IMG/VR virus record: IMGVR_UViG_3300032315_000202
Coordinates: 1 to 64,000 of that record
Direction: 5' to 3' (one strand)
From: a virus
Length of the DNA: 64,000 nucleotides
Shown here: one piece after another, positions 1 to 62,257 of the stretch
How positions within the stretch are numbered: position 1 is the stretch's first letter
Layout of the letters: every line of letters begins with the position of its first letter
Notes under the pieces: model-generated
Database searches by the model: none
Told to the model about the DNA's origin: nothing
Seen by the model: only the letters and a program-made list of their open reading frames with translations
Position numbers and translations under genes: made by a program

Positions 1-3000
1 AGTACCAGTGACATTAGCACCTGCAATAGCACTCAGCCCGCTACCGTTACCTGTAAACACACCGGTGTTAGCAGTGAATGCCGGAGCAGTTATTGTTCCG
101 CTTGAGTTCAACGATGTTAGAGTACCGACGCTTGTGATGTTTGGTTGTGCCGCAGTTGTTACTGTGCCTGCTGTTGTTGCTGCACCAGTCAGCGCACCAG
201 TAAACGTTGTTGCACTCACATTACCTGCACTGATATTGCCTGCTACTGATAGGCTTGTTAGTGTACCAACAGATGTGATGTTTGGTTGTGCATTAGTTGT
301 GACTGTAGCAGCAGTAGTTGCAGCACCTGTCAACGCACCAACAAATGTGGTTGAAGTGACACTAGATAGACCTGCTACTGTAGTGACTGTAGAACCTAGT
401 GTTAGTGCGGTACTACCCAACGTTACACTAGCATTTGCCAATCTTGCTTGAGCAAGTGTGCCGCTTGACACGTTACTTGCGTTTAGGTTTGTTAGGTTAG
501 CGCCGCTACCTGCAAACAACGTAGCACTTACAAGAGCGACACCGTTAATATTTGAGTCAGTGCCTGACATCGTGATATCAGCATTTGCTGCTAACGTCAA
601 TCCAGTCAATGTGCCGACAGATGTGATATTTGGTTGTGCTGCTGTAGTTACAGTACCGGCTGTAGTCGCCGATCCTACCGTACCAGTTACGTTAGCGCCT
701 ACGATTGAACTTAAGCCGTTGCCATTACCAGTGAACACGCCCGTGTTAGCAGTGAACGCTACTGCTGTAACTGTTCCGTTCACGCTCAAAGATGTTAGGG
801 TACCAACTGATGTAATATTAGGCTGTGCAGCAGTTGTCACAGTACCGGCTGTGGTTGCTGAAGATACTGCACCGCTGACATTTCCACCTTGGATATTACT
901 GATATTCCCGCCGTCGCCTTGTAGCTGACCGGCAGTTACTTTATTTGTTACTAGTAATGCAGATAGAGTACCAACGCTTGTGATGTTTGGCTGAGCATTA
1001 GTCGTGACTGTAGCAGCAGTAGTTGCGCTCGTCGCAGTACCGCTCAATGCACCAACGAATGTTGTCGCAGTAATAGACGCATTGCCTAAGTTAGCACTGA
1101 TGCCTGTATTAATTACCGCACTTGAGTTGCCATTGGCACTGCTTGTACTGAATGTCGGATAGACAGTTGTTGCAGTTGAAGTGTTTTGCAATAAAGCTGC
1201 TGCATTAGTTGCACTAGTGACGGTTCCTACGATGTTTGCAGCAGGAATGTTTGATAGACTGTTTGCGTTTCCCGAGAACAGGTTAGCAGTAATAGTACCC
1301 GAAGGAGAAGAAATGTTACCCGCGTTGATATTACCACTGACGATCAATGAAGACAGCGTACCAACACTAGTGATGTTTGGTTGTGCGTTTGTAGCTATAG
1401 TACCTGCAAGTAATGAAGCTCCGATCGTGCCTGAGTTAGAATAGATATTTCCGGCTGTGATGTTATTAGTTACAGTAACTCCGCCCGGGACACTTAAGTT
1501 GCCTGTGCCTTTATTAAAACTAAATCCTGTATTGGCCCCGAGGCTACTACTATCATTGAAGATGATTTGAGCATTAGAACCCGGTGCTGTCGTGACGTTA
1601 GCAGGGGTTACCCACTGTAGGCCGCCGGCTCCATTTGATACCAAGAACTGATTAACTGTGCCGCCGGTGAGTGTTACGTTACCTACGGGACCTAAGTTAG
1701 TTGGACCGCTAACAGTTAAGCCAGTCAACGCACCGAGCGTAGTAATATTTGATTGGGTGTTTGATGCTGCGGTCAATGAACCAGTGATCAAAGTAGCAAC
1801 TATGTTAGCTGCACTTACGTTTCCTGAAACGTTTGCGTTACCAGTAATATTCGCACTATTTGAAGATACTACTAATACATTGCTAGTACCGGCTACCCCA
1901 ACTCTCACGTTTGCGCTAGCATCAACTACGACATTAGATGTACCGTTAACAATAGAAGTACCTCCGGTTACCGCAACATTGGTAAGAAGACTGCCGTCCC
2001 CTTGGAAGAAGTTAGCTCTAGCAAGATTGCCTAGATTTGCGTTTCCGCTCGTGATGTTCCCAGTAACACTTAAGCTTGTTAATGTTCCCACCGATGTGAT
2101 GTTTGGTTGTGCGTTGGTTGTTAGTGTGCCAGTCAAGAACGTAGCACTAAGCAAATTACCACCAGAGATACTGTTAGACGCTCCCACAGTGATATTGTTC
2201 AGCGTACCCAATGATGTGATGTTGGGTTGTGCTGCTGTAGTTACAGTACCTGCAGTTGTCGCACTACCTGCGCTCACTGCGGATGTTGCATTAGCTACTG
2301 CACCGCTGACATTTCCCCCCGGAATGTTGTTTAGTCCTGCACCGTTACCAATGAACGTACCGGTGTTTGCTATGATGTTAGCGGCTGTGATATTTCCGTT
2401 CACACCTAGCGATGTAAGAGTGCCGACTGATGTGATATTTGGCTGTGCGTTAGTATACACTGTACCTGCAACTAGAGCATTTGCTACCTGTCCGCTTACG
2501 TTAGCTCCCGCGACAGAATTGGCAGAACTTGCTGTACCAGAATTTACTGAATAGTTTGCATTAGCAACAGTACCGCTTACGTTAGCACCGGCTACTGCGT
2601 TAGCTGTTGTTGCGAATGTGGCAAGACCAACTGCACCACTTACATTTGCACCTGCTACTGCGTTGGCTGTTGTTGCGAATGATACTGCACCAGATACATT
2701 ACCGCCAGCTACTGAGTTAGCTGTTGTTGCGAATGATACTGCACCACTTACATTCGCACCTGCAACACTATTGGCTGTTGTTGCGAACGATACTGCACCA
2801 GATACGTTAGCACCAGCTACTGCGTTGGCTGTTGTTGCGAATGATACTGCACCGCTGACATTTCCACCTTGAATGTTACTGAGATTGCCACCGTCGCCCT
2901 GAAGTTGTCCTGCGGTTACTTTACCGGTTACCGTTAATGCTGCGAGTGTCCCAACAGATGTGATATTTGGTTGTGCTGCTGTTGTTACAGTACCGGCCGT

Positions 3001-4371
3001 TGTTGCACTAGCAGCACTAGTTGCAGCGCCGCTCAATGCACCAACAAATGTCGTTGCTGTTATAGATGAGTTTGCTAAGTTAGCACTGATTCCTGTATTG
3101 ATTACAACCGAAGCGTTACCATTAGCACTTGAAGTTGTAAATGTAGGATAAACTGTAGTAGCAGAAGATGTGTTCTGTAATACCGCTGCTGCGTTAGTAG
3201 CACTAGGAACAGTGCCGGACACATTAGCGCCAGCCACTGAGTTAGCTGTAGTTGCAAATGATACTGCACCGCTTACATTTGCACCTGCTACTGCGTTGGC
3301 TGTGGTTGCAAATGATACTGCACCAGATACGTTAGCGCCAGCTACTGCGTTGGCTGTGGTTGCAAAAGCGACTTCACCAGATACGTTAGCGCCAGCTACT
3401 GCGTTGGCTGTAGTTGCGAATGCTACTGCACCGCTTACATTTGCACCAGTGATTGATGAAAGAGAAGAACCATTACCACTCACGTTGGTGAACACACCCT
3501 GTGTTGCGCCAATGTTGCCTACGTTAGCATTACCTGTTCCAGTATTCAATGTACCTGCAACATTGACACCTGTTCCCGTAACAACTACGACATTAGAATT
3601 GCCTGCTACTGAGATTCCTATGTTTCCTGAAGCAACAGGGATGTTGATATTTGATGTGCCATTCGCAAGAGTAGGACCAGGAACAGCGATAACACCGGTC
3701 AATAAACTACCATTACCTGAGAAAAAGTTAGCTACTGCTAGGTTACCAAGATCGGCATTGCCTGATCTAAGATTTGCAATAATGTTAGCGTTAGCCGTGA
3801 CATTCAAGTTACCAGTAACGTTTGCGTTTGCACCCACTGTTAATAGATTTCCAGCCGATACGTTGTTAGCATTTAGATTTGCAGTAACGTTAGCATTCCC
3901 GGTAACGCTTAGTACTCCGGAAGTTATAAGATTTCCACCTGTAATATTTCCGACTGCGGTAATAGTATTAGATGACGCAATAGTTAGATTGGCAGTGATG
4001 GAATTAGCAGTAAAAGTGTTTCCTATAGTGATGTTTGAAACACCGGTGATATTAGCCGGCAAGTCGATGAATAGAGTTTGTGAAGAATTAGTTAGAGTAG
4101 CATATTGTCCACCGTTGGCACTCACCCCAATACTTAATGTATTAGTGTAAACTTGGACGTTTGAAATATTCGCATTGACTACTACGTTGCCAAACGGAGA
4201 ACTGACAGTAATACCCAGACCGGGTGTTCTGTTAACCGAAACAACTCTCTGTGCAGCGATTCCGGAGAATAGTTCTGTAAAGTTTTCCTGAACCTTTTGG
4301 AATGCGGCGCGAATTGCATCTGCATTTGGATCATTGGGAAACGTACCGAAATCAATATTTTGCTGTGCCAG
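1..4371 (-). CDS. Giant repeat-rich tail fibre protein, N-terminal 1,457 codons (partial)
   Basis: The minus frame is open from 4371 to the window edge, so the C-terminus is missing. The N-terminus reads (M)AQQNIDFG followed by an AF-K-V-NF-LF pattern, also seen at the start of the protein at 57707-58270. Most of the rest is fibre repeats: about a dozen copies of QPNITSVGTLTSL and two blocks of the 18-residue unit SGAVSFATTANAVAGANV. Such repeats are typical of phage tail fibres, so a role in host attachment or as a fibre shaft is inferred. No ATG, GTG or TTG fits: an in-frame TAG lies ten codons upstream, and a GGAG ribosome site is 8 nt before a CTG at 4371, taken as the start. A late promoter box lies at 4408-4415. 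Many plus-strand open frames here are only antisense to this gene. Confidence 0.85.
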   Translation of the reverse strand, partial: MAQQNIDFGTFPNDPNADAIRAAFQKVQENFTELFSGIAAQRVVSVNRTPGLGITVSSPFGNVVVNANISNVQVYTNTLSIGVSANGGQYATLTNSSQTLFIDLPANITGVSNITIGNTFTANSITANLTIASSNTITAVGNITGGNLITSGVLSVTGNANVTANLNANNVSAGNLLTVGANANVTGNLNVTANANIIANLRSGNADLGNLAVANFFSGNGSLLTGVIAVPGPTLANGTSNINIPVASGNIGISVAGNSNVVVVTGTGVNVAGTLNTGTGNANVGNIGATQGVFTNVSGNGSSLSSITGANVSGAVAFATTANAVAGANVSGEVAFATTANAVAGANVSGAVSFATTANAVAGANVSGAVSFATTANSVAGANVSGTVPSATNAAAVLQNTSSATTVYPTFTTSSANGNASVVINTGISANLANSSITATTFVGALSGAATSAASATTAGTVTTAAQPNITSVGTLAALTVTGKVTAGQLQGDGGNLSNIQGGNVSGAVSFATTANAVAGANVSGAVSFATTANSVAGANVSGAVSFATTANSVAGGNVSGAVSFATTANAVAGANVSGAVGLATFATTANAVAGANVSGTVANANYSVNSGTASSANSVAGANVSGQVANALVAGTVYTNAQPNITSVGTLTSLGVNGNITAANIIANTGTFIGNGAGLNNIPGGNVSGAVANATSAVSAGSATTAGTVTTAAQPNITSLGTLNNITVGASNSISGGNLLSATFLTGTLTTNAQPNITSVGTLTSLSVTGNITSGNANLGNLARANFFQGDGSLLTNVAVTGGTSIVNGTSNVVVDASANVRVGVAGTSNVLVVSSNSANITGNANVSGNVSAANIVATLITGSLTAASNTQSNITTLGALTGLTVSGPTNLGPVGNVTLTGGTVNQFLVSNGAGGLQWVTPANVTTAPGSNAQIIFNDSSSLGANTGFSFNKGTGNLSVPGGVTVTNNITAGNIYSNSGTIGASLLAGTIATNAQPNITSVGTLSSLIVSGNINAGNISSPSGTITANLFSGNANSLSNIPAANIVGTVTSATNAAALLQNTSTATTVYPTFSTSSANGNSSAVINTGISANLGNASITATTFVGALSGTATSATTAATVTTNAQPNITSVGTLSALLVTNKVTAGQLQGDGGNISNIQGGNVSGAVSSATTAGTVTTAAQPNITSVGTLTSLSVNGTVTAVAFTANTGVFTGNGNGLSSIVGANVTGTVGSATTAGTVTTAAQPNITSVGTLTGLTLAANADITMSGTDSNINGVALVSATLFAGSGANLTNLNASNVSSGTLAQARLANASVTLGSTALTLGSTVTTVAGLSSVTSTTFVGALTGAATTAATVTTNAQPNITSVGTLTSLSVAGNISAGNVSATTFTGALTGAATTAGTVTTAAQPNITSVGTLTSLNSSGTITAPAFTANTGVFTGNGSGLSAIAGANVTGT
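2625..2870 (-). repeat. Tandem 54-bp coding repeats, block 1
   Basis: Four to five near-identical 54-bp units encode the 18-residue motif SGAVSFATTANAVAGANV inside the fibre gene. Successive copies of the same site fall exactly 54 nt apart (for example 2677 and 2731). The units differ at a few synonymous and Ala/Ser or Ala/Gly positions. Confidence 0.85.
3215..3450 (-). repeat. Tandem 54-bp coding repeats, block 2
   Basis: A second array of about four 54-bp units of the same family as block 1 (equivalent sites at 3256, 3310 and 3364), separated from it by QPNITSVGTLTSL-type repeats. It is in the same reading frame of the fibre gene. Confidence 0.85.
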
Positions 4372-33885: not shown

Positions 33886-35289
33886 TTATTTCTTTAGAGA
33901 GTTCAACAATGACTTGAGTTTAGCTGATTGTGCATCTACTACTGGTCTTTCTGTCTGTTCTATCGCATCCTGCACAGCATTGTTCACTGCTCCTACCTGA
34001 CTAGTAGTCCTGATCTTATCCATTATTTGAGAAGGAGTTGCTTGAGTGTTCTTGTCCCCGTCTGGATCATCGTCTGTAATACGCATAGTCTCGATGTTAT
34101 ATTCTAGATCGATCTTCATACCTACACCCGTAGAACTACGAGACTTCATACACTGAATCTGATACTTACCTCTCTCCTTCATAGAGCGTGAAGTAAAGAT
34201 ACCGAACACGTAGTCAGCAGTATTGATCTTAGAGATACCACCTGCGATGTGACTGTGGTCGAACTCGATTTCCTCGACTGCTGAACGATTCAACTGAGAT
34301 GCAGTAATCATTAGAACACCTAGCTCTTTAGAAAGATTTCGGAGTTCTTCTGAAACATACTTGTCCTTGATGAACTGATCGCTCGGATTGACCTTGATAC
34401 TGACCGGCATGACCAGATCAAGATAGTCAATCATCACAAAGTCAATCTTGATGCCAGTCTGAATCTGTACTTCCTTGATGTATGCCCGAATCGCATTCAC
34501 GTTAGACTGTGCTGGAAGACCCTTCACACGATACTGACCCATCTTCTTACCAGCCATCTTTACCTTCAGTTCAGCATCGTCAAGGTTCTTACGAATATCC
34601 TTCGTACTCATGCTAGTAAGCATGGCGTCAGTACGCAGAGAAGTCAATTCTTCTGAAAGTTCTAGAGTAACATAGACTCCACTCAAGCCCTGCTTCAACC
34701 AGTTAAGTGCGATGTTCATCATGACCAACGACTTACCAGAACCCGAACCACCTGCAAAGATATTCAGTTCGCCACGGGACATGCCACCATACATAACACG
34801 ATCAAGCTGTGGCCAACCAGTTGACACCTGTCCGCCTTGATTGAAGTACTTGTTGAGACGTTCCTTAGGATCAGCAAAGTAGTCTGTGCCCATGTCACGT
34901 TGTAGCGAGATTTGAACAGCGTCCTTGATCAGCTTTTCAACTGGATCGAAGTCACCCTTCTCAAGCAAATCTGCTGCTTTGAGAATAGCTCGTTCAAGTT
35001 CCTGACGTTTAGTGAACTGTTCAAATTCTTCCAAGAACCAGTCATAATGCCCTTCATCAAGTTCAGGGATAGCTTCAACTTCGACTCCGGTCGTCGCTTT
35101 GATCTGGATCGGATCAGGCATAATACTATATTTTGTAGTATGCTCTACCATAAACTCCGCGACTGGACGAAGCGTTCTATCAAAGTTTTCCGCATTCATG
35201 ATGTTCATAACACGAGTATACAACTCCGCGTTAGTTACCATCATTCTCAAGAATAGCGCCTGTACGTCTGTATTATATTCTTTTATCAA
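33886..35289 (-). CDS. gp41: Replicative DNA helicase (gp41)
   Basis: Hexameric 5'-3' helicase of the DnaB/RecA-fold type, partner of the gp61 primase. Walker A GGSGSGKS at residues 180-187, then ALNWLKQGLSGVYVTLELSEE (motif 1a), FVMIDYLDLVMP (Walker B), LGVLMITASQLNRSA (motif 3) and KSRSSTGVG near the C-terminus. 467 residues (T4: 475). Starts at TTG (35289), overlapping gp61 by 17 nt; the first ATG would remove an N-terminal helix (VQALFLRMM) that aligns with the T4 N-terminus. Confidence 0.93.
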   Translation of the reverse strand: MIKEYNTDVQALFLRMMVTNAELYTRVMNIMNAENFDRTLRPVAEFMVEHTTKYSIMPDPIQIKATTGVEVEAIPELDEGHYDWFLEEFEQFTKRQELERAILKAADLLEKGDFDPVEKLIKDAVQISLQRDMGTDYFADPKERLNKYFNQGGQVSTGWPQLDRVMYGGMSRGELNIFAGGSGSGKSLVMMNIALNWLKQGLSGVYVTLELSEELTSLRTDAMLTSMSTKDIRKNLDDAELKVKMAGKKMGQYRVKGLPAQSNVNAIRAYIKEVQIQTGIKIDFVMIDYLDLVMPVSIKVNPSDQFIKDKYVSEELRNLSKELGVLMITASQLNRSAVEEIEFDHSHIAGGISKINTADYVFGIFTSRSMKERGKYQIQCMKSRSSTGVGMKIDLEYNIETMRITDDDPDGDKNTQATPSQIMDKIRTTSQVGAVNNAVQDAIEQTERPVVDAQSAKLKSLLNSLKK

Positions 35290-36244
35290 GTTTAGTTCTC
35301 GCTATCTGAATTTTAATCTTACTGTTCGTCGCTGCTTGCAATATACTTAGTAGCGTCGGGAGTCTGCCGTATTTTACTACAGCATCGTTAACGTCTTTTA
35401 CGTCTGGCCCCCAGTCAGGTAAGCTGACCTGAAATCCTAATTCCAGAGCCTGATCACATATTGCTAATCCAGTCTTATCTTGATCGGGAACAACGATGAT
35501 CGTCTTATTTAGGTTTCTCAATAAGTCAGCTTGTGTCTCACCTATCGTATTCGTAGTCAACGCACACCCATTGATACTCAGCGCATCAAATATGCCTTCT
35601 ACTACGATACAGCACTCCCACTCCGGCTTTTGAAAATCATAACCGAATATATAACCGGACTGTTGATCCGATATGAACTTCGGGGTCCGATTGTCTAGAT
35701 ACCTGCTCGTGCTTCCTACTATCTTATTGTTGAATGTAAAAGGTATGATGACCCTGTTAGAGTTTCTACCTTCTTCATTCGGTGTTACCATATAGGGATA
35801 GTCGGTGTAATTTAACCCACGCGCCGCTAGATAGTCTATGAATACTTTATGATCAGGATTACTCGCATCGATTAGATCAGCCTCAGGAAGTTCTACTTCT
35901 TCAAACTTGACCTTCTTCTTTTGCTTGATCACCCTAGTCAAGTCTAGCAAGTCTTTATGTTGTAGACTTTCTAGATTCCACTTGTTTATCTGGTTCTCGT
36001 CGATACCTATCCATTTCAATAGCAGCTTAGTGTTGCCGGTAAGCGGTCTACCCAAAGCGAAGCCGCACTTGAAGTTGCAGTTGAAGCAGTGATAAGACCA
36101 ATTTTCCCCGTTCGACTTGACACCGCCGCGCATACGCTTGTCTTGCTTATGCCCGCGATGATGGCAGCACGGGGCGTTGAAACTAATCCAACCGCTGCTC
36201 GTGCTTTTCTTCTTTCCCGGAATGATAGATAGGATATCAAACAT
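35273..36244 (-). CDS. gp61: DNA primase (gp61)
   Basis: Makes RNA primers for lagging-strand synthesis within the gp41-gp61 primosome. An N-terminal zinc site is visible: C26-C27-H28 with C53 and C56 (YHCFNCNFKCGF). The Toprim core shows CIVVEGIFDALSI and IIVVPDQDKTG with the acidic triad, and WGPDVKDVNDAV near the C-terminus. 323 residues (T4: 342). A consensus -10 lies 5 nt before the ATG at 36244, so it appears leaderless and early. Confidence 0.93.
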   Translation of the reverse strand: MFDILSIIPGKKKSTSSGWISFNAPCCHHRGHKQDKRMRGGVKSNGENWSYHCFNCNFKCGFALGRPLTGNTKLLLKWIGIDENQINKWNLESLQHKDLLDLTRVIKQKKKVKFEEVELPEADLIDASNPDHKVFIDYLAARGLNYTDYPYMVTPNEEGRNSNRVIIPFTFNNKIVGSTSRYLDNRTPKFISDQQSGYIFGYDFQKPEWECCIVVEGIFDALSINGCALTTNTIGETQADLLRNLNKTIIVVPDQDKTGLAICDQALELGFQVSLPDWGPDVKDVNDAVVKYGRLPTLLSILQAATNSKIKIQIARTKLDKRI

Positions 36245-37179: not shown

Positions 37180-37557
37180 ATGCACAACGAATTTTTCAGA
37201 AAACTTAGTGAGAATCACCCTTTCATTTCTATATGTTCCTATGCCAGTCAAGACTACGTGGGTATCATTCAAAACCGAGACGACCTAGTTACTACTATGT
37301 ACGATTACGGTGCGATTGTTCCTGCTGAGCTTAAGGCTAGGTTCTTAGAATTGGGAGAGGTATGGTGGTGGGAATCTAATAGAACAATACCCATCAATTT
37401 GTTTCTAAAAGATGACTGGGCCGTATTCAAGCCCTTTATCAGGACCTTCAACAATAAGAGTTTAGCCGTGCTTCATGGACCAGTCGTAAGTATGACAGAC
37501 TTTACTAAGAAGAGAACAAAGCGAAGATCAATTACTCTAGTTAAGCGGATGCCCTAG
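37180..37557 (+). CDS. Conserved late protein of unknown function (125 aa)
   Basis: Contains YVGIIQNRDDLVTTMYDYG, WWWESNRTIPINLFL and a strongly basic C-terminus (TKKRTKRRSITLVKRMP). The WWWESNR-IPIN-FLK string is one I remember from many T4-like cyanophages and marine phages, with no function assigned. A lone plus-strand gene with its own late box. It overlaps the 3' end of the convergent peptide deformylase gene by 17 bp. Confidence 0.75.
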   Translation: MHNEFFRKLSENHPFISICSYASQDYVGIIQNRDDLVTTMYDYGAIVPAELKARFLELGEVWWWESNRTIPINLFLKDDWAVFKPFIRTFNNKSLAVLHGPVVSMTDFTKKRTKRRSITLVKRMP

Positions 37558-38050
37558 ACTTCTTCTTTAGTTCTTTCTTCCGTTTTTCTTTAGCCATCAT
37601 CAATGTAGTATCACCTGCTCGTTGATCAAATGTTACGCCCATTAAATGATCAAACTCGTGTAAGAATACCCGAGATTCCATTCCAGTCAATTCACGCTCA
37701 AACTTGATCCCTTCGGTGCTATAGTATTGAACTATGCAAGAAGACGAACGCTTGACCTTCATAAACAAATCGGGGAACGAAAGACATCCTTCAAGATCAG
37801 TCAATCTATCTTCTGATAGCGACACGATCATAGGATTGATACAAGCTACCAACTTCATGAAATTACCCATGATGAAGATGCGCTTCTTGATACCGACCTG
37901 AGGTGCAGCAAGCCCAACGCCGCCGTTAGCAGTCATAAATTTTGCCATAGCTGTGACAAGTTCAGTAGGATCACCGTCGACCTCAAAATCCCAGAGGTCG
38001 GAAACTTCTAGTAACTGTGGGTCGTTTTCTTTGAGTAATTCTAAATTCAT
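37541..38050 (-). CDS. def: Peptide deformylase
   Basis: Removes the formyl group from nascent N-terminal methionine. All three motifs are present: GVGLAAPQ (44-51), EGCLS (87-91, metal Cys) and HEFDH (131-135, two metal His and catalytic Glu). 169 residues with a short basic tail. Phage deformylases are common in marine T4-like phages and may favour translation or protein turnover during infection. Overlaps the upstream gene by ATGA, last gene of the operon descending from about 43.1 kb. Confidence 0.95.
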   Translation of the reverse strand: MNLELLKENDPQLLEVSDLWDFEVDGDPTELVTAMAKFMTANGGVGLAAPQVGIKKRIFIMGNFMKLVACINPMIVSLSEDRLTDLEGCLSFPDLFMKVKRSSSCIVQYYSTEGIKFERELTGMESRVFLHEFDHLMGVTFDQRAGDTTLMMAKEKRKKELKKKSRASA

Positions 38051-38292: not shown

Positions 38293-38561
38293 GCGCCGAC
38301 CCCTTTCACAATTCCATAAATTAACACAGTGAGAATAAAGAGATTGCAGGTTAATAGTGCAGTGTCTCTTCCTTTATATGCAGCATACGCCCACAGCGCG
38401 GTTCCCATAGACCCAACAATCATGTCTTCAACATGGTAACCAAACGCACGAAGAATGGCTGCGACAATAACTCCGATCGTTCCTAACCACTTAACTACTG
38501 TCAGTGGCGTCAATGATCTTACCGTAACGTCGATCTTTCCTAGCAACTTAGCTACTTTCAT
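38289..38561 (-). CDS. Small membrane protein (90 aa)
   Basis: Predicted inner-membrane protein with about three hydrophobic segments: VVKWLGTIGVIVAAILRAFG, IVGSMGTALWAYAAY and LLTCNLFILTVLIYGIV. A short N-terminal cytoplasmic stretch precedes them. Function unknown. It lies between coupled genes in the early operon, with AAAAGAGAA before the ATG, overlapping the upstream gene by 14 nt. Confidence 0.65.
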   Translation of the reverse strand: MKVAKLLGKIDVTVRSLTPLTVVKWLGTIGVIVAAILRAFGYHVEDMIVGSMGTALWAYAAYKGRDTALLTCNLFILTVLIYGIVKGVGA

Positions 38562-39132
38562 TGGTGTTCTCTTTTAAAAGATTCATGTGTACTACTACGA
38601 GTTGACTGTAACTAATTGCGTGGCTTTTTTTGAATGTGTACCCGGACTGATCTTTGTCCCATACAGTCTCGTTAATCTCTTTCCACTTCTTGCCGAGAAG
38701 ATGACGTTTGGCAGGACGAATAGCTGCAAGGAACATAGCAAGACGAGGGATACTATCTATGGGTTCTGGCATTCTACGTATTAGATCATACGAGTTGCCC
38801 AAGTGAATCAGTTGCTCTACTATTGCCTTATCTTTCAGCACAGACCAGTCTGGGTCCCGCATCAGACGCAATAGATGTTCTTCATCCTTGACTTGACTAT
38901 AGACATGCACGTTCAATAAGTCTAGCTTGAAGTATCCTCTGTTTTCTGCTTCTGCATAGTGCAGAGAAGACATGTCATACATAGGATCGTAGGGTATGTC
39001 AGTAATATAAACACCAGTTGGATGCTTGCGAATTGGATTGACATTCCGCATAGACGCAGGGATATGCTTGATGACCGCTAACAGCTTGTCGCGGTCTCCC
39101 AAATCAATATCAATGTCAGAATCAATTCTCAT
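38548..39132 (-). CDS. Miniature DNA polymerase III alpha (C-family)-like protein (194 aa)
   Basis: Five blocks in the same order as in bacterial DnaE can be seen. DSDIDIDLGDRDKLLAVI (5-21) corresponds to the DnaE DxD palm motif; KHPTGVYI (36-43) to the KHAGGVVIA loop. GYFKLDLL (66-73) holds the third catalytic Asp (D71), as in GLVKFDFLGL. LIRRMPEPIDSIPRLAMFLAAIRP (117-140) resembles the finger region ending in FRPGP, and YTFKKSHAISY (165-175) resembles GFNKSHSAAY. The PHP, helix-hairpin-helix, beta-binding and OB parts of DnaE (about 1,160 residues) are absent. Whether it polymerises is unknown. It is coupled to a DexA-like exonuclease gene two positions upstream. Confidence 0.75.
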   Translation of the reverse strand: MRIDSDIDIDLGDRDKLLAVIKHIPASMRNVNPIRKHPTGVYITDIPYDPMYDMSSLHYAEAENRGYFKLDLLNVHVYSQVKDEEHLLRLMRDPDWSVLKDKAIVEQLIHLGNSYDLIRRMPEPIDSIPRLAMFLAAIRPAKRHLLGKKWKEINETVWDKDQSGYTFKKSHAISYSQLVVVHMNLLKENTNESS

Positions 39133-39402
39133 TCATTTCCACTTTAGTAAGAAGAATGTATATAGCTTTTCATCAACAATGTCAAACTTATCGGATATCG
39201 CACCGTTAATCGTATGTAGCTTGATGCCATAATTATCTTTCATGTATTCGACAAAATCAAGCTGGCCAGCGACAGGCGGGGAGTTTGCCAAAGCTTCAGT
39301 TCGGATTTTCTTAAGTATACCCCAATATTCCCAACGTGTGTTTCGAAACTCAATATCAGGATCATCTGGATCGAAGTCTTCGAAGCGGTTAGGAACTTTC
39401 AT
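39133..39402 (-). CDS. Small protein of the aromatic-LxW family (89 aa)
   Basis: Unknown function. Begins MKVPNRFEDFDPDDPDIEFR, includes YWGILKKIRTEALANSPPVAG and GIKLHTINGAISDKFDIVDEK, and ends YTFFLLKWK. The C-terminal pattern is shared with five other small proteins in this window (40068, 40325, 40561, 61729, 62009). Overlaps the exonuclease stop by ATGA; its own stop directly abuts the next ATG. Confidence 0.7.
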   Translation of the reverse strand: MKVPNRFEDFDPDDPDIEFRNTRWEYWGILKKIRTEALANSPPVAGQLDFVEYMKDNYGIKLHTINGAISDKFDIVDEKLYTFFLLKWK

Positions 39403-39953
39403 CGAAGATGAGTGAATCCAGCTGAGATGAGTTTCTGATAGGCCTTCTGCACAACAATAGCCTGACGCTCTGCGTCTTCAAGTGCTTTGTGTGAGGTCAC
39501 ATGTCCGCCGTCTTTCAGAGAGACGCCGGCAAGATCATAGATAGTGCGACAGTCACGGATATTCCAAAACTGCCAAGGATTCTTGATTTCCAATTCTCGG
39601 AAAGCATGTTCGGCAATCATGATGTCAAAGACAGAACCGTTGCTCCAAACCTTATCAGCACGATTCCAGCAGAACTTGTAAAGTTTCTCCATGCATTCCC
39701 TATAAGAAATGCGATTCTGATCACCCATCGCCTCTTGAATAGCTTCGGGGCTTTGCTCGCTCCACCAGCGGAGAGTATCATCGCTAATGCTACGACCGTA
39801 AACGTCAGTCTGTTCTTCCATCGTAGGACGAAGTTCGATGCGGTCGATCATGCCTTCCCCTTGTGGATCGAACAAAACTGCACCGATAGTGAGGATCACA
39901 GTTGACGATGAGGTGTCAAGCGTTTCCATGTCGATCATAATATGATTAGCCAT
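39399..39953 (-). CDS. dexA: DEDD-type 3'-5' exonuclease (DexA-like)
   Basis: 184 residues. IMIDMETLDTSSSTVILTIGAV gives motif I (D-x-E), SNGSVFDIMIAEHAF motif II (D), and HKALEDAERQA motif III (H-x5-D). FWNIRDCRTIYDLAG resembles the FWNQRDIRT region of T4 DexA, supporting that assignment. Probably degrades host or single-stranded DNA ends. Its first codons overlap the 41-aa gene upstream by 8 nt. Confidence 0.85.
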   Translation of the reverse strand: MANHIMIDMETLDTSSSTVILTIGAVLFDPQGEGMIDRIELRPTMEEQTDVYGRSISDDTLRWWSEQSPEAIQEAMGDQNRISYRECMEKLYKFCWNRADKVWSNGSVFDIMIAEHAFRELEIKNPWQFWNIRDCRTIYDLAGVSLKDGGHVTSHKALEDAERQAIVVQKAYQKLISAGFTHLR

Positions 39954-40071
39954 TAGAACTCCAAATATTGTCTAGCTTTTTAACTTCTTCTACTATATCA
40001 CCGTTTAGGTAATTAAGCAAGGATACGGGTCGTGATTCGGGTAAATAATCTGGTATATTCAGTAAGTTCAT
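39946..40071 (-). CDS. Small protein in operon (41 aa)
   Basis: MNLLNIPDYLPESRPVSLLN starts a 41-residue protein ending in KKLDNIWSSNG. Its ATG overlaps the stop of the upstream gene as ATGA, its stop lies inside the start of the exonuclease gene, and GGAAG precedes it. Those couplings on both sides argue that it is real. No family recognised. Confidence 0.7.
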   Translation of the reverse strand: MNLLNIPDYLPESRPVSLLNYLNGDIVEEVKKLDNIWSSNG

Positions 40072-40349
40072 TCACATAGCTTCCAAAAAACATAGGTCTT
40101 TTCATCAAGTATGATATAGCCCGCGATCTTGAACCACTTGCCCAAGTACTCAGGATTACCTAATCTTTCGCGGCACCATTTCTCTAATTCGCCTGGGCCT
40201 CGGCTGTCTGGACCAATAGGAATACGGATGAACGTCCTGTCTTCCCAAACATCATTCACAGCAATCTTCTTCTTGATCTTCTGCGTCTGCGGGACTACAT
40301 CAATTATTTCGTCTTGATAGGGTCTTAGCCCCATGTTAGCTTGAACCAT
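40068..40349 (-). CDS. Small protein of the aromatic-LxW family (93 aa)
   Basis: Unknown function. The middle (RIPIGPDSRGPGELEKWCRERLG) looks like a small folded unit, and the C-terminus YIILDEKTYVFWKLCE parallels EKLYTFFLLKW of the 39133 gene. Overlaps the upstream gene by 25 nt in another frame. Confidence 0.7.
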   Translation of the reverse strand: MVQANMGLRPYQDEIIDVVPQTQKIKKKIAVNDVWEDRTFIRIPIGPDSRGPGELEKWCRERLGNPEYLGKWFKIAGYIILDEKTYVFWKLCE

Positions 40350-40570
40350 ATAAAATCCCTTTCATATCTAAACTTATAGTGTAGATCATTGTCGCTACAA
40401 TACCATCTACAGTGGTGTTCACACTTGCCGATGTGACCATAAATCCAGTCAACCATCTCAGTATGTCTTTTTACGCCTTTGAATGGATTAGGTTCGTATA
40501 TACGAACTTCGTACCAACCCGGTTTAGTTAATTCCCAACCATTTTTTGAGTCATAGTGATTCACATCCAT
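40325..40570 (-). CDS. Small protein of the aromatic-LxW family (81 aa)
   Basis: Contains GWYEVRIYEPNPFKGV, MVDWIYGHIGKCEHHCRWYC and ends FIWFKLTWG. The HCRWYC cluster and Trp-rich content suggest a small aromatic core. Overlaps the upstream gene by 10 nt. Part of the small-paralogue run 40773-39133. Confidence 0.7.
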   Translation of the reverse strand: MDVNHYDSKNGWELTKPGWYEVRIYEPNPFKGVKRHTEMVDWIYGHIGKCEHHCRWYCSDNDLHYKFRYERDFIWFKLTWG

Positions 40571-40773
40571 CTCAATTTAAACCAGGATACACTTTCCTGT
40601 GTCTCAAAGGAATAGGCATAAATCATATCATCACTCGATGAAACATCAGACACATCAGTCATTGTTAAGCCAATAAAGTCAGGTAGGTTTCTGGCCCATT
40701 CTTCAATCTCTTCCGGATTAGTAGGATCCGAAAGCAGAACAGTATAAGGACTTGAGTATCTAACTGTTGACAC
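40561..40773 (-). CDS. Small protein of the aromatic-LxW family (70 aa)
   Basis: MSTVRYSSPYTVLLSDPTNP start, then EEIEEWARNLPDFIGLTM, ending SVSWFKLRWM. Short beta-strand/helix/strand layout similar to its neighbours, which appear to be diverged paralogues. Shares one base with the stop of the zinc-finger gene upstream. Confidence 0.7.
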   Translation of the reverse strand: MSTVRYSSPYTVLLSDPTNPEEIEEWARNLPDFIGLTMTDVSDVSSSDDMIYAYSFETQESVSWFKLRWM

Positions 40774-41474
40774 TAATATCCAGCCTGATTTAGCAAATCC
40801 TTTACCTGGGTCACGGCGCTCGCACTACGCTTGAACTTGATGGCCCATTGCTCGGGGTTGATGTAATCTATGATCATCTTTTGTTGAGATTCGTCCAAAT
40901 CTTCAATCATCTTGATGCCGCTCTCGCTGTGATACAACATCCACGGACTGATCTTACCAGCAGTTATAGAATAGACTAGCCTGTTTCGATTTGCGTATCG
41001 TAGACAGTCTTTCGTTTCGATTCCTGCTGCCTTTGCAAGTTCAATCGTGTTCTCGATACTACGAGCAACAGCATCCATTGGATCTTCATCCTTTAGATAC
41101 TGAATGAGAAACTTAGTGTAGTTAGAGTCACTGCACCAGCTGTCGATCTTCACGTTGTTCTTGAGCAACCAGTCAGCATAGCGATTGACATTTAGACAAT
41201 GTATGTTCACACAGTAATGCCCGAACTTGACAAATGCAAGGTAATACGCTGACTTACTAAAGTCTAGATATGTCTTCTGCTTTTTGGTTGTAGTGTTCTT
41301 TGCATAAAAGCGAAGCCAAGACTGAAAGCCGATGCGATTGCCTGGCAAGTCTTTATCTTGCCAGCGGCGTTTGTTCTCGCAAAGATGTTTCATCATGGTT
41401 GTCTCACGCTGAAACGATCTGTTGCAAAACTCGCAACTAAATTCTGAGGGCTTAATTTCCCCAGTCTTCTTCAT
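40773..41474 (-). CDS. Zinc-finger protein conserved in T4-like plankton phages (233 aa)
   Basis: An N-terminal C2H2/C2HC-type finger is clear: SCEFCNRSFQRETTMMKHLCE (C-x2-C ... H-x-x-C). Then GFQSWLRFYAKN and DFSKSAYYLAFVKFGHYC, and a helical C-terminal region with GKISPWMLYHSESG. I recall the same layout (finger, then AFVKFG, then KISPWxLY) in cyanophages, unnamed. Nucleic-acid binding is inferred. ATG at 41474 chosen; a GTG 33 nt upstream is possible. Overlaps the probable gp62 gene by 23 nt. Confidence 0.78.
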   Translation of the reverse strand: MKKTGEIKPSEFSCEFCNRSFQRETTMMKHLCENKRRWQDKDLPGNRIGFQSWLRFYAKNTTTKKQKTYLDFSKSAYYLAFVKFGHYCVNIHCLNVNRYADWLLKNNVKIDSWCSDSNYTKFLIQYLKDEDPMDAVARSIENTIELAKAAGIETKDCLRYANRNRLVYSITAGKISPWMLYHSESGIKMIEDLDESQQKMIIDYINPEQWAIKFKRSASAVTQVKDLLNQAGY

Positions 41475-42039
41475 ACTGTTTAATATCTTCGTCTGTAGTA
41501 AGGTCACTTAGTAACTCAATCTCATCAAATTTTAACTCGGGAAACTTCTTAGCAAGATACATCTTTTTCTTGTGGGTTTCAACATACACCTCGCTGAGAA
41601 GGGTTAGATCACCGTCATTGGTTTTAGGATATATCTTCTTGAAGTATTCTTTGATTTCTTTTTGCTTTGGGCTATCAAGCAATCGAGTTACACGTTCTCT
41701 AATATGAGGAATCCACTGATGAAACTGCTTACCCAATCCCGGGCTTGCAGCACACAACATAAGCCATTGCAGCTTGGGATGCTTTTGGACAGCTTCATTG
41801 AACAGATACTTGTTAGCGTGGTATTCAGTGCTTTGAAGATAATAAGACTGAACGTCTGCGCTAGCCCTCACTGCACTGATCCAATGAATCATCATGAACG
41901 GCACGAACTTCTTCCGCTGTTCGGGAGTCAATCTATCATAGTACGAGTAGTCCTTCTTGTCAATAGCCGCTAAGGCGTCAAACAAATCAAAGTCTTGACC
42001 TGTGAACTTTTCGTCTGCTGATAGTTTCTCTTTAGCCAT
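41452..42039 (-). CDS. gp62: Probable clamp loader small subunit (gp62-like)
   Basis: 195 residues (T4 gp62: 187). DLFDALAAIDKKDYSYYD, FVPFMMIHWISA, NKYLFNEAVQKHPKLQWLMLC and GLGKQFHQWI resemble the helical gp62 pattern in T4-like plankton phages, where this subunit joins four gp44 ATPases. The assignment is from memory of the pattern and location near replication genes; gp44 is not in the window. Starts where the previous gene stops (overlap of 1 nt). Confidence 0.55.
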   Translation of the reverse strand: MAKEKLSADEKFTGQDFDLFDALAAIDKKDYSYYDRLTPEQRKKFVPFMMIHWISAVRASADVQSYYLQSTEYHANKYLFNEAVQKHPKLQWLMLCAASPGLGKQFHQWIPHIRERVTRLLDSPKQKEIKEYFKKIYPKTNDGDLTLLSEVYVETHKKKMYLAKKFPELKFDEIELLSDLTTDEDIKQYEEDWGN

Positions 42040-42416
42040 TAAGAGCGCAACGCTTCCAAAGTGATAATGTGTTCGACCGTCTTCCCCAAATCATCAAAGT
42101 CAGTGATGATAGTCAGAGTAGGGCCTGGGCCGTCTTTAAACCGATCTAGCTTGTTATGTTCAATGATCCATCCGCCCGAAGCAGGATAGATAGCAAAGCG
42201 TACACTCGTCTTGGGAAGAGGAGTATCAGACTCTCGTGCCACAATATTTTCGCCGCGACTATTTTCCCAAGCTTCACGGGACCATTCCGCAAACTTTCTC
42301 TTAAACCAACCCATCTTCTTTTCCTTTTTGATATTAGTATATGCAATCTCTCCAGGCATGCTGCCAGCCATTGTTCTGGCGTACTTTGCTGGCGCCGGGG
42401 GCTTACCGTACGACAT
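42039..42416 (-). CDS. Conserved hypothetical protein (125 aa)
   Basis: The core MGWFKRKFAEWSREAWEN starts at codon 35; then VRFAIYPASGGWIIEHNKLD and TLTIITDFDDLGKTVEHII. FAIYPASGG-IEH is familiar from marine T4-like phages without a function. The full ORF begins at the TAATG overlap (42416); the family core begins 102 nt later, so either start is possible. Confidence 0.7.
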   Translation of the reverse strand: MSYGKPPAPAKYARTMAGSMPGEIAYTNIKKEKKMGWFKRKFAEWSREAWENSRGENIVARESDTPLPKTSVRFAIYPASGGWIIEHNKLDRFKDGPGPTLTIITDFDDLGKTVEHIITLEALRS

Positions 42417-43196: not shown

Positions 43197-43796
43197 ATGA
43201 CTATTTATTACGTATACGCATACCTACGCAAATCAACTCTTACTCCATATTACATCGGAAAAGGTAAAAATAAACGGGCATACGGTAAGCATCCCGGAAT
43301 TGTGGTTCCGAAGGATAGGTCTAGAATTGTATTCTTAGAATGTAATTTGACTGAATTAGGTGCTTTAGCTTTAGAGCGGCGGTACATTCGCTGGTATGGC
43401 CGCAAAAATGACCCCAACAATCTAGGAATACTACGCAACAAAACCGAAGGCGGTGAGGGTGTATCGGGCTTCAAAAGAACTGAAGAAAGTAATAGAAAAG
43501 TAAGCGTAGCAAAAAAAGGTACCACTGCTTGGAACAAAGGCCTAACTGGTGTATATACCCAAACTCCTGAGGCTAATAAAGTCAGATCGGAGAAACTCAA
43601 AGGAAGACCGTGTCCAAACAAAGGTAAGATGTCCGGAGAAAGCAATCCTATGTATGGTAAATCTGTTATAGACTTTATGACTGATGAGGAAATATTAAAA
43701 TGGAAAGAATCTCTCAAGAAACGTGTACCATGGAATAAAGGAAAGAAAGGCGTTCAGGTGGCTTGGAATAAAGGATTACATAGACCTTCTCAATAA
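43197..43796 (+). CDS. GIY-YIG homing endonuclease with NUMOD-type repeats
   Basis: Residues 1-90 form a GIY-YIG nuclease: YYVYAYLRKST and YYIGKGKNKRAYGKH, with R/E residues in ALALERRYIRWYG. The C-terminal half contains NUMOD3-like DNA-binding repeats (GFKRTEESNRKVSVAKKG, NKGKMSGESNPMYGK) and WNKG motifs repeated four times. This layout is that of free-standing phage homing endonucleases (Seg type). It overlaps the end of the convergent uvsW gene by 7 bp. TAGGAG precedes the ATG. Confidence 0.88.
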   Translation: MTIYYVYAYLRKSTLTPYYIGKGKNKRAYGKHPGIVVPKDRSRIVFLECNLTELGALALERRYIRWYGRKNDPNNLGILRNKTEGGEGVSGFKRTEESNRKVSVAKKGTTAWNKGLTGVYTQTPEANKVRSEKLKGRPCPNKGKMSGESNPMYGKSVIDFMTDEEILKWKESLKKRVPWNKGKKGVQVAWNKGLHRPSQ

Positions 43797-45247
43797 TCTA
43801 TCTTTTCAATTACAAAGGGATATTGAGCTTCTTTGTAGAATTGCTTGCGTTGAGCAAGATGCCTTTTTGCAAACTTGCAAGTACTAGTGAGGTCCCAAAT
43901 TTCTACATGGTCCTTGTCTTCTGCTTTTCGCAGACCTCTACCGATTGACTGGATAACTCGTACAAATGATTTTCCAGGTTCAATCAATACTATGTTGAAT
44001 AATCTCGGCACATTGATACCAACTGCGGCCACACCATAGGTGCATATTAGGATCTTGTCATCCATAATGGCGACTTCATCATATTCTTCCTTTCGTTCTG
44101 TAAGCTTCGTGCCACCGTTAACGAAAACAGATCCTGGTATTCTGCTGACCAACTCTTTACCTGCATTGACACGATCAACAAGCACAAGCGTGTTGCCTGT
44201 CTCGTTAACCTTCATGATGAGTGCAGCCATCTTATCAAGGCGGCGATCATCTTCTAGTAGATGCTTCAGTTCACTTTGATAGTTATTGAACTCAACAGTG
44301 TCCTTGAGTTGAACGATGTTCACGTGGCACTTAGCAAGAACGCCCCTGTCTTGTAGTTCACTTGCTGCTAACTTACCGATAACAGGTCCAAGTGAGACTA
44401 GGATGGATATCCGATCCATCTCTGCCTTAGGAATCGTGCCGGTCAGTCCCCAGCGAATAGGAACACATGATAGCACCCCGGTTAGCAACGCCTTTAATAC
44501 GTCAGCTTTGGCCATATGAACTTCGTCAACGATGACGCAGCCGACACCTTCGAAAAACGATTCTGCTAGTTCAGGATCACCGTCGTCTCCCTTTGTATTC
44601 TTGAGAAGATTGTTGAGAGATTGCCATGTGCAGATAGTATGTGTCTTGCCATAGTCCTTGCGATCACCGAAGTAGACGCCAACGTCAAGTCCTAGATTTA
44701 TGTAATCTGCTTCTGTCTGTACGACTAGAGACTTGTTAGGAACGATCACAAGCGATCTACCGTAAGGTTCAGCACACAAAGACAGTGCTGCTGTCATCAC
44801 AGTCTTGCCTGCCCCTGTTGCGATCTCTTGCAGTGATTGAGGATTAGCTAAGAAATTGTTGATGATTTCAATCTGATAGTCACGAAGCACGACAGGTTGA
44901 CCCTCCCGCTCGTGCCCTTTAGGCCAGCAAATGTGAGAGAATGTGTCTGCTGTTACCTGCTCAAACGTGAGTTCAGCGTGTGCTTGGCGTAAGTCTTGAA
45001 GTTCAATGTCATATCCTTTATCATAGAGATAAGGAATGATCTGATCTAACAGATTAAGATATGTGCTACCAGCTAATGAGAAATAACTGATCTTGCCGTT
45101 CCATCTTCCCAATCGTACTGCCGGAAGATACCGAGCACCTGGCATTTCGTACTCGAACATCTTCATCAATGCACGACGATCACCTACTTCTAAGCCCTCG
45201 ATCTTTGCGTTAACCTCATCTTTAATTATTATTTTTGCTTCACTCAT
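43790..45247 (-). CDS. uvsW: UvsW ATP-dependent DNA helicase
   Basis: Superfamily 2 helicase that unwinds branched DNA and R-loops and shuts off origin replication late in T4. The N-terminal domain (YLPAVRLGRWNGKISYF) is followed by the Q-motif-like LRDYQIEIINNFL, Walker A ATGAGKT at 142-149, CVIVDEVHMAKAD (DEVH box), RWGLTGTIPK (motif III) and NTLVLVDRVNAGKEL (motif IV). RVIQSIGRGLRK is motif VI. 485 residues (T4: 502). ATGA overlap with the upstream gene. Confidence 0.93.
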   Translation of the reverse strand: MSEAKIIIKDEVNAKIEGLEVGDRRALMKMFEYEMPGARYLPAVRLGRWNGKISYFSLAGSTYLNLLDQIIPYLYDKGYDIELQDLRQAHAELTFEQVTADTFSHICWPKGHEREGQPVVLRDYQIEIINNFLANPQSLQEIATGAGKTVMTAALSLCAEPYGRSLVIVPNKSLVVQTEADYINLGLDVGVYFGDRKDYGKTHTICTWQSLNNLLKNTKGDDGDPELAESFFEGVGCVIVDEVHMAKADVLKALLTGVLSCVPIRWGLTGTIPKAEMDRISILVSLGPVIGKLAASELQDRGVLAKCHVNIVQLKDTVEFNNYQSELKHLLEDDRRLDKMAALIMKVNETGNTLVLVDRVNAGKELVSRIPGSVFVNGGTKLTERKEEYDEVAIMDDKILICTYGVAAVGINVPRLFNIVLIEPGKSFVRVIQSIGRGLRKAEDKDHVEIWDLTSTCKFAKRHLAQRKQFYKEAQYPFVIEKIDY

Positions 45248-61728: not shown

Positions 61729-62028
61729 TTATGACCAACGCAATATGAATAGCATCAAGTGTTTCTCTTCACCAAACCAAAATACGTAGTCCGGCTCAGC
61801 CTGATAATTCCAAATCGTTTCCATACTGCTGATTCGATACCCGCGATCACCGAACGTAGCATAACACCAGTCGACCATTTCTTCCAACTCTGCAAACGAG
61901 TACATGATTGGATTGGCAAAATGTAAAGGTGTCCTTTTGTGGTCTAGGACAAATGTGCCTATACGTTTGGGCGTCGGTTCAACATCATCTATAATGATTG
62001 CAGTTGCTTTAACCCCACGTAAGTTCAT
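61729..62028 (-). CDS. Small protein of the aromatic-LxW family (99 aa)
   Basis: MNLRGVKATAIIIDDVEPTPK start, then FAELEEMVDWCYATFGDRG, a YRISSM strand and the end HLMLFILRWS. Like the 40 kb group it ends in an aromatic-Leu-x-Trp motif and has EEMVDW, matching TEMVDW in the 40325 protein. I use the ATG at 62028, which overlaps the preceding gene by 20 nt; longer starts lack a ribosome site. Confidence 0.65.
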   Translation of the reverse strand: MNLRGVKATAIIIDDVEPTPKRIGTFVLDHKRTPLHFANPIMYSFAELEEMVDWCYATFGDRGYRISSMETIWNYQAEPDYVFWFGEEKHLMLFILRWS

Positions 62029-62257
62029 AGAACATTGCTTCCTTTGGATCCTCAAATGTAGGAGTGTACTCGGTTTCAAAGACTGTACGGCGTTTGATAT
62101 GTGTAGAAAAGCGTCCACGCAGCCTTTCTAGAATCCATATCGTTGATTCAGGGGTAAGAGGAGTGGAAGTCTTGATGAAATGTTCGGGGTTTACCGCCAA
62201 CTCACGTTCAGTGAACCAAGTTTGTAGATTAATATTTTCAATTGTCTTCGTCATCAC
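62009..62257 (-). CDS. Small protein of the aromatic-LxW family (82 aa)
   Basis: Includes INLQTWFTERELAVNPEHF, WILERLRGRFSTHI and ends AMFYELTWG. Same type of ending as the 40325 protein (FKLTWG). Overlaps both neighbours. Unknown function. Confidence 0.68.
   Translation of the reverse strand: MMTKTIENINLQTWFTERELAVNPEHFIKTSTPLTPESTIWILERLRGRFSTHIKRRTVFETEYTPTFEDPKEAMFYELTWG

Follow-up and report, generated by a model that had tools for sequence, protein, structure and literature searches.

A 194-residue protein encoded in a tight operon of an uncultivated phage is most plausibly half of a split enzyme, the C-terminal part of a minimal DnaE-type DNA polymerase III alpha subunit, because in all near-complete relatives the GS-motif part of the polymerase has a gene of its own. 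The two halves probably come together in trans as a minimal accessory polymerase of the C family, a reading given roughly two chances in three. The window (the whole stretch of DNA analysed, 64,000 nucleotides) comes from a 67.5-kb fragment of a larger genome.

The split-enzyme reading is already known. Iyer et al. (2021) reported that jumbo phages of "group 2.2" encode a minimal Pol III alpha in split form, and suggested cooperation in one-strand synthesis or repair as well as an ancestral-polymerase model (PMC7824862). PHROG 11778 and CBB_328 belong to the family of this enzyme; a truncated Pol III alpha is recorded in the CBB paper (PMC5259590), and Pol III alpha and epsilon are recorded in the Atu_ph07 paper (PMC6102473). 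No enzymatic test or experimental work on the split enzyme after Iyer et al. (2021) was found in the open-licence literature. The present analysis locates the split point exactly, corrects the catalytic numbering, assigns the protein to the DnaE type, and adds statistics on pairing and selection, models of the structures and an inventory of losses. The protein shares with the published enzyme its C-terminal Mg2+- and template-binding unit, in a family marked by an N-terminal NTP-binding unit encoded separately and far away, a family B polymerase and no other Pol III domains. It differs in that its own partner lies outside the available sequence; it is 37-48% identical to the named-phage members and comes from an uncultivated phage fragment.

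Gene family and kinship to DnaE

The open reading frame that the earlier note had picked out is confirmed on the minus strand (Table 1), and its product matches PHROG 11778, annotated "DNA polymerase", over its full length (residues 5-189 of 194; E = 1.1e-55). Family matches occur in 90 GenBank phage records and at least 592 IMG/VR stretches. Measured against close relatives, dN/dS is 0.02-0.07, which indicates that the protein is under strong constraint. Conservation was read from two collections: a family alignment (A1) of 23 members, 37-87% identical to the 194-residue protein, which contains the most distant members and whose named phages were chosen without the DIDID pattern; and 76 family sequences (A4), whose underlying locus set was picked with that pattern.

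All five blocks that had been proposed to follow DnaE are present and keep DnaE order: D6-I-D-I-D10 with R14, H37-x-x-G40, G66-Y-F-K69-L-D71-L-L, A132-M...R139-P140 and F167-K-K-S-H171...Y175. Single-sequence searches with the protein against Pfam, NCBIfam and PDB sequences gave no match, nor did the A1 profile against PDB sequences. Aligned by hhalign with E. coli DnaE alone, A1 matched in the finger block only, so that an alignment of 11 DnaE sequences was required (A3; E. coli DnaE and ten from the phage-record collection). A1 matches A3 with E = 1.1e-10 and 97% probability over residues ~31-141, from before H37 to P140, and by this profile comparison the family's likeness to DnaE exceeds chance. 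Taken by itself, the FKKSH block hits PHROGs of phage DnaE (3e-9 at best among members), and phrog_405 matches it in 21 of 23 members.

Structure prediction agrees with the profile match. The AlphaFold2 model (pLDDT 92.3, pTM 0.77) recovers a Pol-beta-like palm fold, of which the single chain makes up one half: Pol III alpha chains fill the first nine places among the Foldseek matches in the PDB, with TMq reaching 0.55, and the matches that follow are unrelated and of low probability. The best Foldseek E-values for models of the two halves are modest (6.5e-3 and 2.8e-2). Profile and predicted fold together support the relationship with palm and fingers of the C family that had been claimed from the blocks; neither of the two outcomes that the earlier note had named as refuting it, an unrelated fold or a missing profile match, was obtained.

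Catalytic residues

The metal ligands of E. coli DnaE are D401, D403 and D555, and D405 is an extra aspartate that is retained in the DnaE groups and replaced by asparagine in PolC (PMC3919608). With E. coli positions checked in MG1655, D401, D403, D405 and D555 align with D6, D8, D10 and D71, and H511, K553, R639 and H760 likewise have equivalents within the collinear palm and finger blocks. The earlier note was right that three catalytic aspartates are retained, the triad being invariant, but the ligands are D6, D8 and D71 rather than D8, D10 and D71. D10 points to a protein of the DnaE type, as opposed to PolC.

In A1 the invariant residues are D6, D8, I9, D10, H37, G40, K69, D71, R139, P140, K142, W158, K168, H171, Y175 and N184, and the invariance of D6, D8, D10, H37, K69, D71, R139 and H171 extends down to 37% identity. 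D6, D8, D10, R14, H37, K69, D71, R139, P140 and H171 are invariant in the 76 sequences of A4, where conservation of D6, D8 and D10 is partly by construction because the loci were picked by the DIDID pattern. R14 is lost in Rak2-like members. Three loci initially appeared to be without DIDID; two of them (L213 and L268) do have it, and the third (L059) appears frameshifted.

The partner half

The 194-residue chain starts about five residues before D6, at E. coli position ~398, and is devoid of the GS motif, which holds the incoming nucleotide and is carried by the partner protein. A PF07733 search of the relatives' genomes revealed this second protein, of ~170 residues, in all eight complete jumbo phage genomes (PA5oct, Atu_ph07, Phosso, SCTP-2, GAP32, 121Q, PHA46 and XaC1) and in three IMG/VR contigs. 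All 11 partners match PF07733, above the cut-off in 11 genomes. The GRGS motif is invariant, and EFL(K/R)-stop closes the partner in nearly all of 76 sequences. The partner profile matches DnaE (E = 3e-11), aligning up to E. coli residue ~393, and picks out Pol III alpha chains among PDB sequences (E = 9e-4); the best PDB folds for the partner model (pLDDT 88) are also Pol III alpha. Since the partner ends at ~393 and the 194-residue protein begins at ~398, the split point lies inside the palm.

Both halves are carried by 14 of 22 large contigs, including all six of at least 240 kb, and the eight with one half only are all ~200 kb or shorter. The halves stand tens of kilobases apart in the relatives' genomes. 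The partner was not found in the 67.5-kb fragment, and the pairing is seen in relatives only. A fused form was sought among the fetched relatives and was not found. An 89-residue open reading frame lies upstream in frame with the 194-residue gene, separated from it by only TGA then ATG (39130-39135, minus strand); it was considered as supplier of the missing half and dropped, as it has no GS motif and the TGA|ATG junction is not general. Directly abutting stop codons at this junction occur in some relatives, not most.

Family B polymerase was found in 14 of 14 large genomes (the eight complete genomes and six IMG/VR contigs). The expectation that one is encoded elsewhere in the genome is thus borne out in relatives, but no gp43 was found in the 67.5-kb fragment itself.

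Domain losses

PHP and (HhH)2 are near universal in bacterial C-family members (PMC3919608). The absence of PHP, HhH and OB noted earlier is borne out, PHP and HHH_6 giving no match in the 14 large relative genomes, but the losses go further: also gone are the thumb, the palm half that bears the GS motif and the fingers segment with the arginines. In the comparison with A3, neither the thumb (E. coli ~420-510) nor the fingers segment with Q687, E688 and R709/R710 has a counterpart. Compared with E. coli DnaE, the 194-residue chain is thus without PHP, the GS half, the thumb, the R709/R710 finger segment, HhH, OB and the C-terminal domain. The rebuilt two-chain enzyme would still lack the thumb and the Q687, E688, R709/R710 segment, and keeps ~12 of the 22 columns that are invariant in the 11 DnaEs. 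PF17657 (fingers) gave only sub-threshold matches in relatives, mostly to the C-terminal half itself. With these results, the idea that the other domains of DnaE have genes of their own elsewhere was dropped.

A 559-residue, PHP-less, single-chain DnaE (L276, G019:C1:53500-58500, positions 1390-3069, plus strand; PF07733 1e-42, fingers 1e-16) is encoded on a contig, G019, that also encodes both split halves. It resembles the split enzyme in having a C-family palm without PHP, but it is a single chain with GS motif, catalytic aspartates and fingers above the Pfam cut-off; it was rejected as a fused form of the halves, being a separate protein. Its only close full-length relative found among phage records is in the 484-kb uncultured phage LR756508 (38%). 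L276 is a possible intermediate in DnaE reduction.

Genomic neighbourhood

The order UvsW, PHROG 11279, PHROG 11058 (zinc-finger-like), C-terminal half, PHROG 11637, primase, DnaB is essentially kept in the window and in all eight named phages (Table 1). In relatives, genes for a gp44-like clamp loader and a GroES-like protein are found near the partner. The synteny of the C-terminal half and the place of the partner near the clamp loader put both halves in replication and recombination neighbourhoods. The DexA-like exonuclease to which the earlier note had drawn attention is a real gene, but it stands at the same place in none of the eight relatives, and its candidacy as a proofreading partner was dropped on that ground. 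Like a peptide-deformylase-like gene and several small genes, this exonuclease is a local addition.

Table 1. Features of the split-polymerase locus in the window
Feature	Position	Strand	Remarks
C-terminal half of split minimal DnaE (PHROG 11778)	38548..39132	-	194 aa; second palm part (Pol-beta-like) and reduced fingers
D6-I-D-I-D10	39103..39117	-	metal-binding D6, D8 (E. coli D401, D403) and D10 (D405, DnaE-type)
K69-x-D71	38920..38928	-	third catalytic Asp (E. coli K553, D555)
FKKSHAISYS, residues 167-176	38605..38634	-	reduced fingers block (E. coli FNKSHSAAYA)
UvsW-like helicase	43790..45247	-	conserved neighbour; 45-56% identity in 8/8 relatives
PHROG 11058 protein	40773..41507	-	weak C2H2 zinc-finger match; conserved neighbour, 8/8 relatives
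DexA/Rv2179c-like 3'-5' exonuclease	39399..39953	-	local neighbour; position not conserved in relatives
PHROG 11637 gene	37180..37557	+	convergent 3' neighbour; conserved in 8/8 relatives
DnaG-type primase	35273..36244	-	conserved neighbour
DnaB/gp41-type replicative helicase	33886..35289	-	conserved neighbour

Proposed function and alternatives

The C-terminal half would be the metal-binding, template-facing part of a DnaE-type polymerase reduced to little beyond its catalytic palm, and the ~170-residue partner, encoded elsewhere, would supply the GRGS nucleotide-binding motif. Most likely the halves join non-covalently to form one Pol-beta-like palm in which three aspartates bind two metals. 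The assembled palm may then work alongside the family B replicase, as an accessory polymerase or a nucleotidyltransferase. Its most plausible job would be to extend RNA primers or recombination intermediates that gp43 then takes over, a suggestion that rests on the place of the C-terminal half between recombination/helicase and primase/DnaB genes and of the partner near the clamp loader. In its full form, the proposal is a tentative one: a thumbless C-family polymerase of ~360 residues, with most of the fingers gone and its palm built in trans, that extends primers or recombination intermediates and hands off to the family B replicase. Comparable hand-offs are made by DnaE to PolC in Bacillus and by Pol alpha in eukaryotes. 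If the halves form an active enzyme, it would probably rank as the smallest known polymerase of the C family, and its active site would be drawn from two chains with genes of their own. Such an enzyme would reveal the capabilities of a replicative palm stripped of thumb, PHP and most of the fingers, and it would mean that a bacterial-type and a T4-type polymerase operate together in one group of phages.

The missing thumb and the loss of much of the fingers leave room for two other uses of the assembled palm. The halves might form a catalytically silent, palm-like scaffold, a replisome subunit that binds clamp, primase or primer ends. The loss of the thumb and the R709/R710 region, the loss of R14 in Rak2-like members and the full family B polymerase that the host phages already own all fit such a scaffold. 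However, the three metal-binding aspartates, K69 and the partner's GRGS are invariant at 29-38% identity, and a dead scaffold would not need them; this makes a silent palm rather unlikely. The invariance of the triad and of GRGS likewise tells against the "inactive accessory" once listed for the 194-residue protein. Less probable again is an active nucleotidyltransferase that is not a DNA polymerase and whose NMP acceptors might, for example, be protein, RNA ends or small molecules. Template-independent transferases are common among proteins of the Pol-beta fold, and most of the DnaE grip on template and primer (thumb, HhH, OB) is missing, but the finger-type blocks AMFLAAIRP and FKKSH are retained and both genes are placed among replication genes.

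Two readings that treat the C-terminal half by itself fare worse. Its intact aspartate triad would suit a miniature polymerase or terminal transferase, both proposed at the outset, but as a stand-alone enzyme it would have neither the GS motif nor the preceding palm helices, which reside in the partner of every near-complete relative, so that this is very improbable; a decoy, also proposed, finds no support. A functionless, decaying fragment of a captured bacterial dnaE, as the truncation of the DnaE piece and the "truncated" label of the phage CBB version (PMC5259590) might suggest, is scarcely credible given dN/dS of 0.02-0.07, at least 592 related stretches and conserved length and synteny.

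Other features of the locus

Several further genes were noted around the operon. A peptide-deformylase-like gene, recognized by eye from its motifs (37541-38050, minus strand), lies between the C-terminal half and its convergent neighbour and is absent there in the eight named relatives. A GIY-YIG-like homing endonuclease candidate, also recognized by eye (43197-43796, plus strand), adjoins uvsW and is a possible gene-splitting agent in these phages.

Small, otherwise dissimilar open reading frames on the minus strand (39133-39402, 40068-40349, 40325-40570, 40561-40773 and 61729-62118) resemble each other at the C terminus, which reads approximately F-(W/L)-x-L-(R/K/T)-W; they form an apparent paralogous family around the split-polymerase operon; a similar ending occurs in L276. 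Another small protein of the operon (42039-42416, minus strand) has a 34% identical relative (2e-18) in a related jumbo phage (L127, 7507-7812, plus strand), where it directly precedes the gp44-like clamp loader and is close to the partner half.
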